This document shows, piece by piece, positions 13,101 to 46,265 of a stretch of DNA of 64,000 bases. Origin of the DNA: Owenia fusiformis (Eukaryota; Annelida; Polychaeta; Sabellida; Oweniidae); assembly GCA_903813345.2 (NCBI GenBank), contig CAIIXF020000004.1, positions 11,492,196 to 11,556,195 on the forward strand, given 5' to 3'. Numbering within the stretch: position 1 is the stretch's first letter; each line of letters begins with the position of its first letter. The notes under the pieces were generated by a model. It saw nothing but the letters and a program-made list of their open reading frames with translations. It was not told the origin of the DNA and did no database searches. The translations under genes and the position numbers were made by a program.

Positions 13101-16100
13101 CAGACTATCCTTAAATGAGCACTGATTCACACGAGAGCATAACTTTTCCAAAACATGTTAGTGTTATTTTTGGAACACTTACATTAATGTTTCGTCTAAT
13201 TTTCCCTCAGAGTTTCCTCATCATTGTCTTAGGCCATATTTGTTGAGATATATGAATGTTCATTATTAAAATCTTGCCTTCCTTTGCAGTTGGAGAAGAC
13301 TCGGCATTAGGTGTTATAAGTCCCAGACCACGATAAATAAAAAATAACAACACAATGACATAGAACTGATAAACGTTTTCTCTTGTGCGTGTCAGCCATC
13401 GGTCTACCAAATTAATTGCTATTCAGTGGGAAGAAACTCATTTTTCAGTTTCCATTTTAATTTCCTGACAAATAGAGCGATCATCCCAGCATTTTTTCTA
13501 TGATCTATATATCTATGTGCCTTAGCAACTTCTGTTTTAGAGAACAATAAAACAATAGAAAAGATTACTTTACCATAATTCTAATCATCCCACATTGTAG
13601 ACATATTTAGAATTAAAAATATGAAGAGAATGACAAAACCTCTTAAAACACATTTCTTAGGAAACAAATAGTGTGGTATTCTTGTTACTATGGCAACATA
13701 GTTTTTTTTATTTTTGTCATTTTTGTCATACAGATTACCTATCATACCAGGACCAAATCCTGAAAATTTGAATTCAGTATCTTCATTAGTATCTAAGATA
13801 TATAGGCTTCTTATAGTATCCCCTGCAGATTTCATCGGAGTATAAGGAAAATGCTCTGAAGAGGGATGCCCAAGGATGCCACTTAACAGTTCTGGTATTT
13901 TTGAGGTCCCAACCCTCTATTCATGGGAATAGTTAACCATTGTAAAGGTACTCATGGTTAACTGACAGAATTGATTGTATCTTCAACTAAGAAGTCAATA
14001 AAATGTTAAAACCAGAAGAAAACCACACCAACTTTCTTCTATTTACCAGGGGTAGGGCATTATAAAGTCATATTAAAATTACAAAATAGTACTTCATCAC
14101 TATATAGATGTATTACAATATCAAACATAGCTTGGGAATGTTGTTAGAATACTGCTTTGAGCTGTTAAAGTTATCATATTTTGCTTGAAGCTACAAATAT
14201 AAAATAAACAAGAAAAAAATGACAATAATTGCATATTTTTTTCTAATTAATTGTATTTTTCCGAAACCAACGAAGATATCAACCTATAACTTTAGGATAG
14301 TATTCATCTCTGTACTAACAATGTATGCTGTAGAACTCAGAACAATAATTTATATATCCTTCAAGTTATGAACTAATATTATAGTACCCCCTAAGATAAT
14401 TTCCTAGGGGGGTAAAAACGCTAAAATGCAGTGTCGTGACCACCCCGTTGAGCTGTCATCTTTTAATATCTTTATCAGCATGAAAAACTGATCCAGAAAA
14501 AATAGGTCTGTTGCTTTTTCTAAAAAATGCCTCAAAAAGTCTTTCCCTTGAGATATTCTGAAATTGGAACCTGTCTATAATATGCAATGTTATCAAAGAA
14601 CAAGTTTTGTTTGTTAAATATATCACAAGTGGATTGTTGCTCCCTTAAACGGAAGATCGAGGTTTAAGACAAGCATACGATCCACGATTGGTGCATTTTA
14701 CAAATTGAGTGAGATGCTTATGTCCTTTTATATGAATATTAATGCCTACATTACTTTTGGAAATCATTGATATGTGAGACTTAAATGTAAAGTTGTTTTA
14801 ATTGCATATGGACATTGCAATAGTAAATGCTTGCAATACCTTTAGATTTGCACTTCCACTCAATCTCTACATATTTGTGTATCATTTCACATGGATCTCC
14901 AACTATTCCTTTTATTCGCAGTGAGTCTACTATACATTTGTTTTTTCCATTACACCACTTTTTAAGGAGCGGAAACGTCTTATCTTCGCTGGTACAGGCG
15001 GTATCCCGATAAAACCAGGAATTCATCCTATTTAAACAAAGGAGATTACAAATGCTCGAATTGCAAGCGCTTAAGTTAAAAGGAAAGGGGGTGTGGTTCC
15101 CCGGTGTGGTACACGTTGTACTGAGTAATTTGTGGTAGTTTACAAGTTTTGTATTTGCGCGAACATACAGCTCTAGTTAAGCGTGGAATTCACTGAAATA
15201 AAAACATTTTTCATCCAGGCATGGGGGCTCATATATCATCAACGTTATCATATAGTTTTCATGACAAATCACTTAAGGCCACATTTACTAATCTTCAATA
15301 ATGTGTTCTAAAATACTTAATATCTTGCTAAATATAAAATTTAATTTATTTTGCGCTATAAACGTATATTGTCTTAATTAACTACTTTATAGTGTGCTCA
15401 AGTATCGCCATACTTACCATAGGCCCGGAAAAATGTATAAAAAACCAGGTCGAAATCCCTTAGAAAAGAGATTTCTTTAAAGGACTCAGACTCGATTTTT
15501 ACAAATGTTCCCGGCCTATGCCACTTACAATGGGTTCGAGCATGTGTGTGTATCCTTCCTACCAAAATCAGCGTTGACGATCTTTATCTTTGATCCCCTG
15601 TTTTGACATTGTAATATGGTTGTACCACCTTCACAGAGGACTGTGCGTGGGGGAATTATAGGAGCTAAACCGGGGGGCACTGGGACACTCCTTCGACCTT
15701 TAATATAAATCAACACATGTTTTAATGGCAATCATCTATAAGTTATATCGTTGCTTTGAATCGAATTCCGTTTGTGTCATTTTCACTGTTATTAATAATG
15801 ACACAAACGGAATTCGATTCAAAGCAACGAGTGCGGCAAACGTCAAAATGGAGTGCGTCGTGGAAGAACTAAAACATGCACAATCTAACATCTAAAGCGG
15901 CATGTACAGATCATTACTCTCAGGTGTTAACGACGCAAATTATCAACGTAATGACTAATGCGTGTGTAACTTCATCCTCCGAACGCAGGAATCCGGATCG
16001 TTTAATCAAAGGAACATAAATGGTGATGTCTGGAGTTTTGCGTTCGGGTAATATGGTGTAGCTTAAACTGAACGATATACTTGCAAGCTAGCGCCCAATC

Positions 16101-19100
16101 CCGCGAATTTATATGAATGCTGAAATAAGAATAAATGAATTTTCTTTGTGAATGGTATATGTGATAAAATCTGAAAATAGTATCACTATTAAAAAGATGA
16201 ATTGATAACTATGTCGATAACAGAGGGCACATCATTACCTTTACATTCCCACTCTACTTCAACGTAACTGATCTTTGTTATACATGGGTCTCCGACTATT
16301 CCTACTATAGTCCTTTGGTCGACGACGCACTTTTCTTTTCCATTGCAAATACTCTTCAGAAGAGGGAATGTTTGGTCTTTACTTGTACACGATGTGTCAG
16401 AATAAAACCCCGAGCCAAATCTATTGGATATAAGAATACAAGTTACACAATAGCTGTGTTTGCTTCGACATCCGGGTATGAATTCAAATTTTTAATCTCG
16501 AAACAAAAACCAAATCATCATTTCATAATGAAAACGAAAGATGATATATTGTATGTATTTCATGTATTTTACTTTATTTCGGACACATAACAATGTCTAC
16601 TTAGTTGCAAATGATGATGAAGGAGTACGATAGCGTTAGGGTACTCTTTATATTTCAGTATATATAGAACCCTACGATTGAGAAAAGTCTGAATTCTTAT
16701 AAGATACAAATAATTTTGTTTTGATTTATACTTTGTTAAAGTGAACAATACCTCATGATCACGGTTTGACATTGGTTTATCCCCCTTATTTTCCATATTT
16801 GAAAGTCTTATCAGTTATCACCGGAATGTTATAAAAACAGTTCGACCTTCGACCTGCACCTTCGACCTTCACCTTCGACTTACAGGGTGTCAAAAAAGCG
16901 GGCCAAAAAGAAAGTTATAAAAACCCTTCGACCTGCACCTTTGACTTATTGACGTTTTATACTCAGTTATGCATGCAGTTAGTAAACGATGTGAAAATGA
17001 AAACAGTTCTTGAATTCAAGCAAATGATTTCCATCGATCGATTCTTTTTTTCTTCGTAAATTGGTAAAAGGTTACCTGCATGAAAATACACTGGAAGTCG
17101 TGGTGTCGCTACAGTAAACAAGAGAATGATAATCTTTATAGTCTCCAATCGATGCGGGAATGTTGATCGATCATGTATATAATATTTCTACGGCTGCAAG
17201 AGGAGGGGGGAGGGGGCGGGCGACTAGTCAAATTTTTTTACAGGGGGGGGGGGGGTGCCGGTGAAACTCAAAATACCTACCCAATTAATTTTTAAAAAAC
17301 AAGACCCACTTCCGGCGATTTTTTGAAAAACAGTACCTATACAGTTTTAGGATTTTTCAAAGAGTAGACCCTAGGGATTTTTTATCATATCTAGTGTTTT
17401 TTCTTCAAAATGGGACCCACACCTAGGGATTTTCCGGTGAAAAAGTGACCCGTCCCCATACACAGGCCTGTCAACTTGGGAACACCTAACACGAGTGACT
17501 TGCAAATGTTGAACTGCACCTTTGTTCAAATTTTGGACACCTTGGTCCAAATCTGAACACCTTGGCCACATTTTGAACACCTTGGTTTAAATTTTATTGC
17601 ATATAATCAAAGTTTGGACACCTCAAATTTTTCGCGCTCGCGAACTGTTATCAGGGGCGGGGGGGGGGGGGGTAGGTAGGTACGAAATATTTAAAGCAAA
17701 ATGCGGGACATATACGGTATCCGCGTGAAAATTCCGAACGAAATGCGTTCCTTTTCGTCGTTCGGTTTTGTGGTGTATTGCCGATCATTTTTGAAAATGT
17801 TTTTGCAAGAATATTTTTGCTGGACAATATGCGTATTTGCGTGACATACTCTGTCACGTAAAAAAAACTGGCGTGACTTCAAATTTTCCAGCAAATGCGT
17901 GACAAATACGCAAATTGCGGGACAGTTGGACGGCCTGCATACAGTACAGCCAATATGTGGTACATTTTGGCTGCAGGCCTGCTAGTCACGTCTGAGACAT
18001 GGACTCCCCCATGGACTTGAGTGAATGTTTCTAACGTATTTCCTAATAGGCCTACTTATATAGGTGTTTACAATTATATGACTTATATGGAAATCCTTGT
18101 ATGGAAATATTATATAGTTTCGAAAGAAAATATGACTTTTGCGTGGTCAGAGATCGGCAAAAATAGCTTCTATAATATTTTCTTTTTGGACACCGTGTAG
18201 GTCGAAGGTGTAGGTCGAAGGTGCAAGTCGAAGGTCGAAGGGTTTTTATAACATTCCGTTATCACCTTGTCATATGCATTTGAGATATATACTTACTCTG
18301 GCTTCGTGCATGTGTGTTTGTTTTTCCTACCATAGTCTCCACTGCGGACATTTATCACAGTTCCAAATGCTTTGCATTTTAGAGTTGTCTTTTCATCTTG
18401 GCATATAAATGTACGCTTCACTATAACAAACATTAACAAATTGTTAGCAAATATCACTTTAGTCCCACAAGATAGTACAGAAATGGTCGAAGAGGTCAAA
18501 TAACTTGCCATTCACCTAAGAGGATATTTTACTACAAGTATGGTCAAAGAAGTCAATAAAGTCATGGGCCTTTGGGGACAGTAGACAAATGGCCGAAGAG
18601 TTGAACCATTCTCTATTTGATCTCCATGATAGTACAGAAATGATCGAAGCGGTGCACTTTCTAGCTGATGGCCAAAAAGGTTTTACAACTACTTTTCATT
18701 AAACATACTTGATAGTACAACGATGGTCGAAGAAAGCAATAACTTACCCTTGATTTAAGATGATAGTACAACGATGGTCGAATAAAGCAAAAACTTACCA
18801 TTGGCTTGAGATGATAGTACAACAATGGTGGAAGAGAACAACAACTTACCATTGGCTTGAGATGATAGTACAACAATGGTCGAAGAAAGCAATAACTTAC
18901 CCTTGGCTCGAGATGATAGCACAACGATGGTCGAAGAAAGCAATAACTTACCCTTGGCTTGAGATGATAGCACAACAATGGTCGAAGAAAGCAATAACTT
19001 ACCTTTGGTTTAATATGATAGTACAACGATGGTCGAAGAAAGCAATAACTTACCCTTGGCTTGAGATGATAGTACAACAATGGTGGAAGAGAACAACAAC

Positions 19101-20446
19101 TTACCATTGGCTTGAGATGATAGCACAACAATGGTCGAAGAGAACAACAACTTACCATTGGCTTGAGATGATAGTACAACAATGGTCGAAGAGAACAACA
19201 ACTTGCCCTTGGCTTGAGATGATAGTACAACAATGGTCGAAGAGAACAACAACTTGCCCTTGGCTTGAGATGATAGCACAACAATGGTCGAAGAGAACAA
19301 CAACTTACCATTGGCTTAAGATGATAGTACAACAATGGTCGAAGAGAACAACAACTTGCCCTTGGCTTGAGATGATAGTACAACAATGGTCGAAGAGAAC
19401 AACAACTTGCCCTTGGCTTGAGATGATAGCACAACAATGGTCGAAGAGAACAACAACTTACCATTGGCTTAAGATGATAGTACAACAATGGTCGAAGAGA
19501 ACAACAACTTGCCCTTGGCTTGAGATGATAGTATAACAATGGTCGAAGAGAACAACAACTTGCCCTTGGCTTGAGAAGATAGTACAACTATGGTCGAAGA
19601 AAGCAATAACTTACTCTTGGCTTGAGAAGAAAGTACAACGATGGTCGAAGAAAGCAATTACTTACCATTGGCTTGAGATGATAGTACAACAATGGTCGAA
19701 GAGAACAACAACTTGCCCTTGGCTTGAGATGATAGTACAACGATGGTCGAAGAAAGCAATAGCTTACTCTTGGCTTGAGAAGAAAGTACAACGATGGTCG
19801 AAGAAAGCAATTACTTGCCCTTGATTTAAGATGATAGTACAACGATGGTCGAAGAAAGCCATAACTTACACTTGGCTTGAGAAGAAAGTACAACGATGGT
19901 AGAAGAAAGCCATAACTTACACTTGGCTTGAGAAGAAAGTACAACGATGGTCCAAGAAAGCAATAGCTTACTCTTGGATTGAGAAGAAACTAAAACGATG
20001 GTCGAAAAAAGCAATAACTTACCCTTGGTTTAAGATGATAGTACAACGATGGCCGAAGAAAGCAATAACTTTATCTTGGCCTGATAATATAGTACAACGA
20101 TGGACACAGAAAGCAATAACTTACCATTGGCTTGAGATGATAGTACAACGATGGTCGAAGAAAGCAATAACTTACCCTTGGCTCGAGATGATAGCACAAC
20201 GATGGTCGAAGAAAGCAATAACTTACCCTTGGCTCGAGATGATAGCACAACGATGGTCGAAGAAAGCAATAACTTACCCTTGGCTTGAGATGATAGCACA
20301 ACAATGGTCGAAGAAAGCAATAACTTACCTTTGGTTTAATATGATAGTACAACGATGGTCGAAGAAAGCAATAACTTACCCTTGGCATGAGATGACACGA
20401 TAAGGAAAGCTACCACGAACAGGTATCCAGGTGTACATATTCTTTC
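9917..20446 (-). CDS. Secreted double-SUEL lectin with a C-terminal VHL beta-like domain
   Basis: Seven exons join with matching phases: 20446-20380, 18420-18297, 16420-16239, 15697-15529, 15027-14840, 10520-10459 and 10144-9917, giving 339 residues plus an unseen N-terminal Met exon. Order: signal core (LFVVAFLIVSS), SUEL lectin 1 (about 24-124), SUEL lectin 2 (about 135-243), short linker, VHL beta-like domain (about 250-339). Both lectin domains show the family landmarks: GDYGRK/ADFGRK, HTC, GDPC and a final YVEVEWEC/YVEIEWKC. SUEL domains bind galactose or rhamnose. The last domain resembles the substrate-binding beta sheet of VHL (SVVLIWVN, IPPGG, TYSKHYFVA, LYVP). VHL beta domains normally act inside cells, so pairing with a signal peptide and lectins is odd. 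Translation start is unresolved because the first exon seen begins at an acceptor (TTGTTTCAG) in phase 0. Confidence 0.75.
10256..10362 (-). pseudogene. Decayed partial copy of the VHL-like exon
   Basis: This ~107-bp stretch repeats the 5' part of the VHL-like exon and its acceptor (original at 10055-10163), for example AATATCAATACAACC and TTGGACAGTT against GTGGACAGTT. It has diverged and has no usable acceptor AG at the matching place. It lies in the last intron, so it is a local tandem duplication that lost function. Confidence 0.6.
10459..10520 (-). CDS. Linker exon between lectin and VHL-like parts
   Basis: This 62-base exon (phase 1 to 0) lies between GTTTACAG and ACAG|GTATAT. It encodes VDKVCNGPSGEKSVSSPQLTQ in two pieces of low complexity; the SSPQLTQ end aligns with the start of the VHL beta domain (NSREPSQ). 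A 4-kb inserted element ends only 25 nt upstream of its 3' splice site. Confidence 0.6.
10546..14577. mobile_element. 4.0-kb non-autonomous element with ~540-bp terminal inverted repeats
   Basis: The ends are inverted copies (TAGACAGGTTCC ... GGAACCTGTCTA) and the similarity continues inward to about 11085 and 14020, including a shared GACAGCTCAACGGGGTGGTC block. TAA flanks both sides (10543-10545, 14578-14580), a 3-bp target duplication as made by PIF/Harbinger-type elements. No transposase was recognised. Minus-strand open stretches at 13207-13835 include hydrophobic segments but no known family. The element fills nearly the whole intron between the second SUEL domain and the linker exon. 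Confidence 0.7.
14840..15027 (-). CDS. SUEL lectin domain 2, second half
   Basis: This 188-base exon (phase 2 to 1, acceptor TTTAAATAG, donor AAAG|GTATTG) encodes FYRDTACTSEDKTFPLL, CNGKNKCIVD, GIVGDPC and HKYVEIEWKC. It is closely similar to domain 1, second half, with all framework cysteines kept. The following intron carries the 4-kb long-TIR element. Confidence 0.75.
15529..15697 (-). CDS. SUEL lectin domain 2, first half
   Basis: This 169-base exon (phase 1 to 2) starts with a Pro-rich linker (SVPVPPGLAPIIPP) and continues with TVLCEGGTTILQC, IVNADFGRKD and HTC. The donor is ATT|GTAAGTG. Its acceptor is TATTAAAG. A perfect 34-bp inverted repeat lies about 50 bp upstream, in the preceding intron. 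Confidence 0.75.
15748..15830. repeat. Perfect 34-bp inverted repeat (hairpin)
   Basis: Arms 15748-15781 and 15797-15830 are exact complements separated by 15 nt. In the lectin pre-mRNA this would fold into a long perfect hairpin about 50 nt upstream of the exon that starts at 15697. The arms contain GAATTC and no coding sense. Confidence 0.8.
16239..16420 (-). CDS. SUEL lectin domain 1, second half
   Basis: This 182-base exon (phase 2 to 1, acceptor ATCCAATAG, donor AAAG|GTAATG) encodes CTSKDQTFPLL, CNGKEKCVVD, VGIVGDPC and ISYVEVEWEC, the conserved second half of a SUEL domain with the DPC motif and closing WxC. The split between half-domains is the same as in domain 2, which supports ancestral domain duplication. 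Confidence 0.75.
16823..18257. mobile_element. 1.4-kb TIR element with 9-bp target duplication (Mutator-like)
   Basis: The element begins GGAATGTTATAAAAAC and ends in the exact complement. Both sides are flanked by GTTATCACC (16814-16822, 18258-18266). A 9-bp duplication is typical of Mutator-like elements. Just inside each end are tandem TTCGACC/GGTCGAA heptamers. The interior has G-runs near 17195-17260 and 17655-17670 and short repeats of ACACCTTGGT (17535-17590). No transposase is seen, so it is non-autonomous. It sits in the intron that splits SUEL domain 1. Confidence 0.75.
18297..18420 (-). CDS. SUEL lectin domain 1, first half
   Basis: This 124-base exon (phase 1 to 2, acceptor TGTTATAG, donor CAGA|GTAAGTA) encodes the first half of a SUEL domain: FICQDEKTTLKC, then INVRSGDYGRK and HTC. 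The GDYGR segment matches the ANYGR signature of rhamnose-binding lectins. It joins the exon at 16420 in phase 2. Confidence 0.75.
18465..18710. repeat. Degenerate outer units of the 51-bp array
   Basis: Diverged pieces of the same repeat (GATAGTACAGAAATGGTCGA near 18470 and 18632, GGTCAAAGAAGTC near 18540) extend to within about 45 bp of the first SUEL exon. They are older than the regular units and show that the array spans the whole of intron 1. Confidence 0.65.
18711..20394. repeat. 51-bp minisatellite, 33 units, filling lectin intron 1
   Basis: Units recur every 51 bases with no length change from 18762 to 20343. On the minus strand each contains CATCTCAAGCCAAGG followed by GTAAGTTATTG (or GCAAGTTGTTG), matching the end of the signal-peptide exon (CATCTCATGCCAAGG|GTAAGT) and its intron start. 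Roughly three quarters of the units keep GTAAG; the rest have GCAAG. Because 51 is a multiple of 3, long frames with a 17-residue period appear on both strands; these are by-products. Confidence 0.85.
20380..20446 (-). CDS. Signal-peptide exon of the lectin gene
   Basis: The acceptor TTGTTTCAG and donor CCAAGG|GTAAGTT bound 67 bases, phase 0 to 1. The encoded stretch LFVVAFLIVSSHAK is a hydrophobic core followed by a small-residue cleavage-like site. There is no in-frame ATG, so the Met codon must be in an upstream exon not identified here. The last 16 bases of this exon and its donor are the seed of the adjacent 51-bp repeat array. Confidence 0.6.
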
Positions 20447-42512: not shown

Positions 42513-45500
42513 TAGTGGGGCAAGTTAGCTGTTCAATTGCACTTGCTATATATAAAGCACCATTTTTTTACCAAAGTATCCTTAATACATATAGATTTAA
42601 TATTTAACGAAGTGGTAATGAAAAGTGCCCCCATTTAATAATAGCAGCCCTTGAAAATTTTGCATTTTTACATTGAGCCCCATGTTAATTTATCAATCTT
42701 CTAAGGACCCCCTGCAGAACAGTTCTAGAGTAATAAAGCCAATATTCCCAGTATGTTACAATTATATGATTATCTTCAAAATAAGAAGGGTTAAATTTTT
42801 TCTTTTGCCTAGTTCCAAAGATATTGGCCTTTGGATTTTGGAAAATTCCCATTGACTCCCATTATAAACCGCTATCAATATGGCTTTAATAAAATATCCT
42901 TTTCTCAAAAAGTTTACTATGGAATTTTCTGATATTGCAGATTTCTATAGTTAATATGTTGACTTAAAAAAAATCAAACAGACACATTTCTAATAATTTC
43001 TTATTTTTGAAATATTAAGCTGTTAAGTTGCACATGAAACTATAAAAAACCTATATTGAGCCCAATGTTAATTTAGCTATCTTAAAAGGACTCCCTGCAG
43101 AACAGTTCTAGAGCAATAAAGCCCATATTCCTAGTATGTTACATTAACATAATTATCTTCAAAACAAGAGGGGTTAAATTTTTTCTTTTCCCTGGTTCCA
43201 AAGATATCGACATTTGAATTTTGGAAAATCTCCATTGGCTGCCATTATAAACCACTATCAACATGGCTTTACTAAAGTGTCCTTTTCTCAAAAAGTCCAC
43301 TATGAAATTTTCTAATATTGCAGACTTCTATTGTTAATATATTGAATTTAAACAAATCAAACAGACACATTTCTAAAAATTTCCTATTTTTGAAATATTT
43401 AGCCATTAGGTTGCACACGAAACTATAGAAATCCTATATTGAGCCCCATGTTAATTTATCAATCTTCAAAAGACCGGCGCCAGAGCAGTTCTAGAGTAAT
43501 AAAGCACATATTGCTGGTTTATTCCAATAACATGATTATTTCTAAATTAAGAAGGGTTAAATTTATATTTTTTCCTAGTTTCCAAAGATATGGGCGTTTG
43601 AATTTTGGAAAATTCCTATGACTCCCATTATGAACCGTTATCAATATGGCTTTACTTAAATGTCATTTTCTCAAAAGATTTACGATGGAATTTTCTAATA
43701 TTGCAGATTTCTATAGTTAATATATTGACTTAAAAGAATCAAACATGCACATTTCTGAAAATCTTTTTATTAAGCCGTTAATAAAAACTATAAAAAAACT
43801 AATTGAGCCCAATGTTAATTTAGCGATCTTCAAAGGACCCCCTGCAGAACTGTCTAGAGAAATGAAGCCCATATTCCTAGTATGCTACAATAACATAATT
43901 ATCTTCAAAATAAGAAGGATTAAATTTTTTCTTTTTGGCTAGTTCCAAAGATATTGACGTTTTGAATTTTGGAAAATCTCCATTGGCTGCCATTATAAAC
44001 CACTATAGATATGACTTTACTAAAGTGTCAATTTCTCAAAAAGTTTACTCTGAAATTTTCTAATATTGCAGATTTCTATTGTTAATACATTGAATTTAAA
44101 AAATCCAACAGACACAATTCTAAAAAATTCTTACTTTTGAAATATTTTGCCGTTAAGTTGCACACAAAACCATAGAAAACCTATGCCCCATGTTAATTTT
44201 AATCAATCTTCAAAAGACCACCCTCAGAACAGTTCTAGAGTAATAAAGTCATATTGCTATTGTGTTACAATAGCATGATTATCTTCAAAATATAAGAAGG
44301 GTCAAAACATTTTTTCTTTCCTAGTTCCAAAGATATTGGCGTTTGAATTCTGAAAAATGTCTATTGGCTGTCATCATACACCGCTATAAATATGCCTTTG
44401 ATTAAAGTGTAAATCCTATTTCTTTTAACTTTTTACGGTCTTTGCTTTACATGTTCTTCAAGATTACATACATTTTTTAATACAATGAATTACTAAAACG
44501 TAATAATAAGTCTTGATAAGTCCCTGATAACTAAACTCATGTTATCATCACATCGTAAATGCTCTGAAAATGATTTTAATCACATATTTTGAAAATAAAT
44601 ATACGGTACAATGTTTGACCCAATGTTTAGGACTTAATATCAGAAACTTACGCCAACAGCATCCCCTTTCAAGTAAAAAAGATATATTGATGTCTTTCAA
44701 GTTTGTAAACTAAATGTTGTTTTATTCATACTTAATTGTTTCAAAAGATAAAATGAATCCCTGTCAACATGTACAATGATTATTTCATTACAAATAGCAA
44801 AAATCGTGCATGTTATAATTTTATTTATTTATGGAATGAACTCCTTCAAAGAAATCCATAGGCAAAATAAATTGAAGTCGGATTATAAAAAATAATCCAA
44901 AATAGCAGAAAATAGCAGACATTTTCAATTGAACGGCCATATTGGAAATTCCCTCTCTAGCAGAGGTCTTACAGCTATTAGTGCAATAATGGCATAAGCC
45001 TAAAACATTTTGCCAGTATTTCAGTAAGTTATCACTTAATTCAATATATTTACTATAGAAGTGTGCAATATTAGAAACTTCCATAGTTGACTTTTTGAAA
45101 AAAGGACACTTTAGTAAAGCCATATTGATAGCGGTTTATAATGGCAGCCAATGGGGATTTTCCAAAATTCAAACGGTAATATCGTTGGAACTAGGCGAAA
45201 GAAAACACTTTACCCTCTTTATTTTAAAGATAATCGTATAGTTGTAACATACTAGGAATATTGGCTTTTTTACTCTAGAACTGTTCTGCAGGAGGTCTTT
45301 TGAAGATTGATGATTAACATGGGGCTCAATACAGGTTTTGTATAGTTTTATGCGTAACTTGATAGCTAAATATTTCAGAAATAAGAAATTTTTAGAAATG
45401 TGTCTGTTTGATTTTTTTAAATTCAGTGTATTAACTATAGAAATCTGCAATATTAGAAAATTCCATAGTAAACTTTTTGAGAAATTAACACTTTAGTAAA

Positions 45501-46265
45501 GTCATATTTATAGTGGTTTATAATGGCAGCCAATGGAGATTTTCCAAAATTCAAACGTCAATATCTTTGGAACTAGGCTAAAGAAAAAATTTAACCCTTC
45601 TTATTTTGAAGATAATCATATAATTGTAACATACTATGAATATTGGCTTTACTACTCTAGAACTGTTCTGCAGGGGGTCTTTTGAAGATTGGTGAATTAA
45701 CATGGGGCTCAATACAGGTTTTGTATAGTTTTATGCGTAACTTGATAGCTAAATATTTCAGAAATAAGAAATTTTTAGAAATGTGTCTGTTTGATTTTTT
45801 TTAATTCAATATATTAATTATAGAAATCTGCAATATTAGAAAATTCCATAGTAAACTTTTTGAGAAATTAACACTTTAGTAAAGCCATATTCATAGTGGT
45901 TTATAATGGCAGCCAATGGAGATTTTCCAAAATTCAAACGTCAATATCTTTGGAACTGGGCAAAAGAAAAAATTTAACCCTTATTATTTTGATGATAATC
46001 ATATAATTGTAACATACTGGGAATATTGGCTTTATTACTCTAGAACTGTTCTGCAGGGGGTCTTGAGAAGATTGATAAATTAACATGGGGCTCAACGTAA
46101 ATGTGCAGAATCTTCGAGGGCTGCTATTATCAACTGGGGCCACTTTCCAATACCACTTCGTTAGATATCGAATATATATGTATCAATGATACTTCTGTCA
46201 AAAAAGTTTGCTTTATATATAGCAAGTGCAATTCTAGGGTTTTATTGTCCTAACTGATCCCACTA
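42513..46265. mobile_element. 3.75-kb foldback element with satellite-filled arms
   Basis: The ends TAGTGGGG and CCCACTA are inverted and flanked by TTA (42510-42512, 46266-46268), a 3-bp target duplication. About 130 bp of unique terminal sequence (for example AATTGCACTTGCTATATATA) is followed in each arm by tandem ~380-bp units. Units on the left start near 42673, 43055, 43439, 43805 and 44190. On the right, three or more run in the opposite direction (46095 to about 44900). The middle, 44430-44820, is unique and AT-rich. No transposase was seen. Scattered small open frames are satellite artefacts. Confidence 0.75.

Follow-up and report, generated by a model that had tools for sequence, protein, structure and literature searches.

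What becomes of a gene when its 5′ splice site stands at the head of a minisatellite whose units each open at the position of that site? The question is raised by a SUEL lectin gene on the minus strand of a 64,000-nucleotide stretch of DNA, hereafter the window (C4:11492196-11556195 of a 498-Mb assembly). A sequence-only reading had described a 51-bp unit that holds the last 16 bases of a signal-peptide exon and its donor, is repeated 33 times directly downstream, and supplies an array of decoys for the true donor. Minisatellites that lie across exon-intron boundaries have been described in amphioxus, where they are called mirages (PMC3087553). We consider it likely, with a probability of about 0.78, that the lectin array is a minisatellite of this type and that its copied donors are passengers of repeat turnover.

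The host gene, here called A, consists of five exons with AG acceptors and GT donors that join into an open frame of 243 residues. Its product matched SUEL_Lectin in two stretches, scoring 86.4 bits against a Pfam cut-off of 31.4. Exons 1 and 2, both of which the sequence-only reading had named, each carry an AG acceptor and a GT donor and form part of this frame. The description of exon 1 as the signal-peptide exon fared less well: the exon is hydrophobic and probably encodes a signal peptide, but no in-frame ATG occurs in it, or upstream of it as far as the first in-frame stop, so the start codon must sit in an upstream exon. When the peptide of exon 1 was searched against the genome, the only matches (two, with E up to 10) fell in gene A and in a second gene copy, B, described below.

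Table 1. Features of lectin gene A and of its array (window coordinates).
Feature	Position	Strand	Basis
Exon 1, 67 bases, hydrophobic, ERICTPGYLFVVAFLIVSSHAK plus one base, phase 1	20380..20446	-	AG acceptor, GTAAGT donor, in frame with four downstream exons
Exon 2, first half of SUEL domain 1	18297..18420	-	Frame and borders; 120/124 identical to copy B
Exon 3, second half of SUEL domain 1	16239..16420	-	Frame, SUEL_Lectin match
Exon 4, first half of SUEL domain 2	15529..15697	-	Frame, SUEL_Lectin match
Exon 5, second half of SUEL domain 2	14840..15027	-	Frame, SUEL_Lectin match
True donor AGG/GTAAGT, first of 33	20374..20382	-	U1 pairing -10.0 kcal/mol
Exon tail homologous to array unit	20380..20396	-	15/16 bases in register
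Minisatellite, 33 units of 51 bp, each opening at the donor position	18710..20379	-	TRF and cutting at the donor
Decayed older units, no GTAAG or GCAAG	18577..18649	-	blastn of consensus dimer, 46/73, E 2.5e-5
Decayed older units, no GTAAG, one GCAAG (18508)	18471..18559	-	blastn of consensus dimer, 64/89, E 3e-12
218-bp stretch with decayed units, absent from copy B	18471..18688	-	Alignment of the A and B intron ends

TRF reported the array at 18710-20395, with a period of 51, 33.1 copies and 89% matches. Cutting at the donor resolved it into 33 uninterrupted units at exact 51-bp steps (20379, 20328 ... 18747), the last of which, from 18747, retains its first 38 bases. The first of the 33 donors is the true donor, which has the strongest U1 pairing among the five scored donors of gene A. 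The earlier count of 33 therefore holds for the units but includes the true donor, leaving 32 copies downstream. About three quarters of the units had been said to keep GTAAG, and 24 of 33 do so, the others having GCAAG (8/33) or TAAAG (1/33). The array had been taken to end at 18711, but decayed units go on to about 18471, and the repeat therefore once extended to within about 50 bases of the next exon. A word count in the decayed zone (18709-18471) gave no GTAAG and one GCAAG.

A genome-wide scan for the donor segment of the unit, allowing up to three mismatches, returned at least 43 matches (repeat counts in such scans are lower bounds); all 43 lay in the two arrays, the reversed control gave none, and no third locus with the unit was found. 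By eye, another SUEL gene at C9:1907168 has no such array, and the donor-segment scan found no unit at the others among the 18 SUEL matches in the genome. When 18 of the 32 TRF rows of the window were tested for GTAAG and GTGAG, 16 of the 17 arrays besides the lectin array had neither word and one had a single word. Two arrays of a 383-bp unit, with 4.6 and 2.8 copies by TRF, lie at window positions 42672-46095. At the other end of the window, an open frame on the minus strand (1054-1416) that by eye resembles a thrombospondin type 1 repeat stands beside 1.9 copies of a 325-bp unit (1373-2005), and copies of this unit recur in the left flank. Elsewhere in the assembly, a mir-2 microRNA cluster spans about 5 kb at C3:15959502-15964738, with three matches over the cut-off and one below it; in the same search one bacterial control genome also matched, below the cut-off. 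An Rfam scan of the mir-2 locus showed this family alone. To our knowledge, mir-2 is confined to protostomes; the host is probably a protostome, and it seems not to be an amphioxus. A search for the GFP family gave no match, in a run where the control genomes gave none either, and COX1 had no match in the assembly although it matched in 8 of 14 control genomes, so that a mitochondrial contig offers no help.

Copy B lies just left of the window, with its array at about C4:11487799-11489106 and its donor 23.5 kb from that of A. Its array has 25 units, three of them of 47 bp, and the donor word is GTAAG in 20 and GCAAG in 4 of the 25. Exon 1 is identical to that of A at 64 of 67 positions (exon 2, Table 1), and exons 1-3 are open. 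Exon 4, located with exon 5 at C4:11485704-11486491, aligns in part (bases 2-120 of 169) and carries an in-frame stop and a 2-base insertion; exon 5 has lost a cysteine codon, and the second lectin domain of B is broken. In both gene copies the repeat unit spans the exon-intron boundary and the splice signal is kept in many, though not all, units. An assembly accident is an improbable explanation for the array, because the same boundary carries it at two distinct places in the assembly.

A and B may be two haplotypes of one locus that the assembler set side by side, a possibility that we put at slightly less than even and that is compatible with any of the readings discussed below. Blocks of collinear homology extend over window positions 166-20479 and over C4:11469144-11489139, the outer ends of both adjoining a run of 3000 N (11489196-11492195), and one A/B block of 4.9 kb is 98% identical. 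However, 27 differences in 561 bases of exons 1, 2, 3 and 5 (exon 4, which aligns partially in B, was left out), together with the broken second domain of B, are much for alleles, and the 56 bases with which B runs up to the Ns have no match in A. The Ns may also stand for withheld sequence and not for a gap, and the same picture would result from a genuine tandem duplication whose junction coincides with a break in the assembly. About 20 kb is found in duplicate, collinear on the two sides of an N run that ends at the window start, with kilobase insertions on each side, and the other long A/B blocks are about 87-96% identical. This block comparison covers blast rows of at least 80 bp (at least 300 bp for array-internal rows), and one table those of at least 150 bp.

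The arrays themselves record a history of copying. In A, units A1-A3 are identical to A27-A29 and units A18-A20 to A21-A23, which indicates that whole blocks were copied within the array. The last units of the two arrays, A33 and B25, are one base apart and continue into a common intron flank; the array therefore predates the A/B split. Alongside these exact block duplications stands the difference in length, 33 units in A vs 25 in B, between copies that may be alleles or paralogs.

Whether the unit derives from the exon at all was addressed by aligning the exon end with the unit consensus. In register, 15 of the last 16 exon bases agree; in the 50 other registers the number of agreeing bases is at most 10. 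The local score between exon and unit was 27 in A, against a shuffle maximum of 25, and 31 in B, against 27, so that none of 5000 dinucleotide-preserving exon shuffles reached the score of either copy. The tail of exon 1 in B is more unit-like than that of A: its last 18 bases are all identical to the end of unit B8, a match noticed after the data had been seen. An array lacking the exon-derived segment had been named in advance, for related species, as a sign that the match is fortuitous; in the array of copy B, in the same genome, the segment is present. These results agree with the proposal that the 51-bp unit holds the last 16 exon bases and the donor. They leave it very improbable that the array arose within the intron and that the exon end resembles its unit by accident, even though the likeness weakens farther into the exon than 16-18 bases from its end (22 identities over the final 34 bases in A), as an accidental match might.

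If the donors are copies, they might still have been put to use. Paired with the 5′ end of U1, 11 of the 32 copies in A and 15 of the 24 in B equal or exceed the stability of the true donor of their own array, that of B being weaker than that of A. Pairing reaches -9 kcal/mol or better in 18/32 copies in A and 15/24 in B; among the 3447 GT sites that this strand has beyond the array, 17 reach this value, which makes array A about 40 times denser per kilobase. It is thus plausible that the copies are targets of U1. As a functional ladder of decoys, they would hold U1 and slow splicing or divert it to stop-containing transcripts, with array length setting the output of lectin. In both gene copies each extension of exon 1 does run into a stop after 14 codons, the first extended frame reading GKLLLSSTIVVLSY and then a stop, as had been claimed. 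In the human ABCA7 gene, a longer intronic VNTR goes with lower expression, but the retention of one unit there does not depend on array length (PMC5954066; available portions of the paper). Conservation within the arrays also argues against such a ladder. Over 53 of the 58 units (all but the three units of 47 bp and the final unit of either array), mean heterozygosity was 0.154 in the donor window from -3 to +6 vs 0.131 elsewhere, and 80% of same-sized circular windows showed equal or stronger conservation. The corresponding figure for +1 to +6, the six intron bases, was 18%, a mild constraint that is not unusual. Columns +3 to +5 (AAG) changed once in 159 cells, but several non-donor columns are equally invariant, and column +2 is other than T in 13 of the 53 units, 12 of these being T to C changes that yield a weak GC donor. 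The comparison of donor columns and circular windows with the remainder thus lends no support to selection on the nine-base donor word and points to mild constraint on six bases. The decayed zone, where GTAAG is absent and a lone GCAAG remains, and the 9 of 33 units of A with a stop in the extension frame likewise speak against retention as decoys. Hence, the part of the decoy claim that stands is that many copies are as good U1 targets as the true donor; that they were kept for this is possible but not supported, and we regard a functional ladder as unlikely. As a separate candidate, recursive splicing at units reading AAG/GTAAG was rejected, too few units fitting (2/33 in A).

The units could, alternatively, be coding, adding signal-peptide-like segments (GKLLLSSTIVVLSSQAK) to an alternative long exon. 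A length of 51 is divisible by 3, and in A 24 of the 33 units are open in the extension frame. Yet unit 1 stops in both gene copies, the remaining stops bringing the units affected to 9/33 in A and 4/25 in B; another frame of A has fewer stops (3 vs 9), so that openness is not specific to the extension frame; and the three 47-bp units of B shift the frame. Stop counts, per frame and per unit, therefore do not support a coding array, which we consider extremely improbable. The shared stop in unit 1 may be chance or not.

A passenger minisatellite, the reading we prefer, would have arisen from a founder stretch comprising the last ~16-22 exon bases and the first ~23-30 intron bases, duplicated in tandem. 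Unequal exchange or conversion would then have reshuffled the growing array until most of the intron was occupied, with the copied donors carried along by repeat turnover. The spliceosome presumably uses the exon-proximal donor in most cases. Occasional use of a downstream donor would add n x 51 bases to the exon and, through the stop in unit 1, lead to loss or truncation of the product. Because this stop precedes every later unit, any downstream donor would give the same truncated product, and because it is met 14 codons on, mis-splicing would cost output without yielding a longer protein. The effect of the array would thus be at most a small tax on expression, with no new protein.

Repeat turnover might also reach back into the coding sequence. 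All three A/B differences in exon 1 fall in its 17-base repeat-like tail (20380..20396), with none in the other 50 bases, and two of them change amino acids, S to L and H to Q. In Fisher tests run after the differences had been noticed, p was 0.014 when the tail was compared with the rest of the exon (50 bases) and 0.043 when it was compared with the remainder of exons 1-3 and 5 (24 differences in 544 bases). It is conceivable, though doubtful, that conversion between units and the exon tail rewrites the coding exon, in which case the array would serve as an intronic store of variants for the donor and for the end of the exon that probably encodes the signal peptide.

In the portions of the literature available to us, the closest relatives of this arrangement are the amphioxus mirages. 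They have been reported in Adh3 and in the globin genes BflGb6 and BflGb9, as well as in TnC and PGBD5 (PMC3087553, PMC3902484). Like the lectin array, they are boundary-spanning repeats with AG/GT signals in many but not all units (PMC3087553); instability in length is a feature described for amphioxus. The Adh3 data and RT-PCR of globins suggest that regular splicing is undisturbed there (PMC3087553), and the BflGb6 mirage combines concerted evolution inside with divergent edges (PMC3087553, PMC3902484). In size, the 33 units of 51 bp of the lectin array compare with the 150-160-bp units of BflGb6, present 3 and 6 times in its two haplotypes, and with units of 10-72 bp in Adh3, and, unlike the amphioxus mirages as described in these sources, the lectin array fills most of its intron.

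Another parallel, likewise drawn from the available text, is offered by the VNTR in intron 18 of human ABCA7, which has a C-rich 25-bp unit in 12 to about 427 copies (PMC5954066). As in the lectin gene, the repeat opens exactly at the donor of an exon. Retention of a single 25-bp unit through a downstream donor was observed, and with increasing VNTR length skipping of exon 19 goes up and expression goes down (PMC5954066). The two differ in that the ABCA7 repeat lies in the intron, in that there is no sequence relation, and in that the 25-bp unit of ABCA7 shifts the frame whereas the 51-bp unit of the lectin array keeps it. The effects on expression and exon skipping are those measured for ABCA7. 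A model of intron gain by tandem duplication of AGGT-containing segments (PMC4974935, PMC3087553) resembles the present case, as far as the available descriptions go, in that the duplicated segment holds a splice signal; in contrast, the lectin array lies inside an intron and gives no sign of a new one. Among protostomes, intron minisatellites that vary between gene copies or individuals have been found in an earthworm metallothionein gene and an abalone TSSK1-like gene (PMC12783039, PMC6905558), and the intron minisatellite CeRep25B of C. elegans has been linked to alternative splicing (PMC4039745). These are intronic like the lectin array, but the accessible parts of the reports mention no exon-derived unit or copied donor. 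Among the matches listed in our literature search, whose coverage left out most subscription papers, there was no boundary minisatellite in a lectin gene or in a protostome.

Taken together, the array is genuine: a long mirage-type minisatellite in good preservation, hosted by a lectin gene and probably lying outside the chordates. As already documented for human ABCA7 in the available portions of that work, the length of an array can affect splicing, and in this respect the principle is not new. With two array lengths occurring naturally in a single genome, the lectin gene offers a large and clean natural test of how the spliceosome would choose one donor from 33 similar ones at 51-base spacing. 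Should the host be a protostome, minisatellites at splice boundaries would extend beyond the chordates, where the cases that we met in the accessible literature lie.
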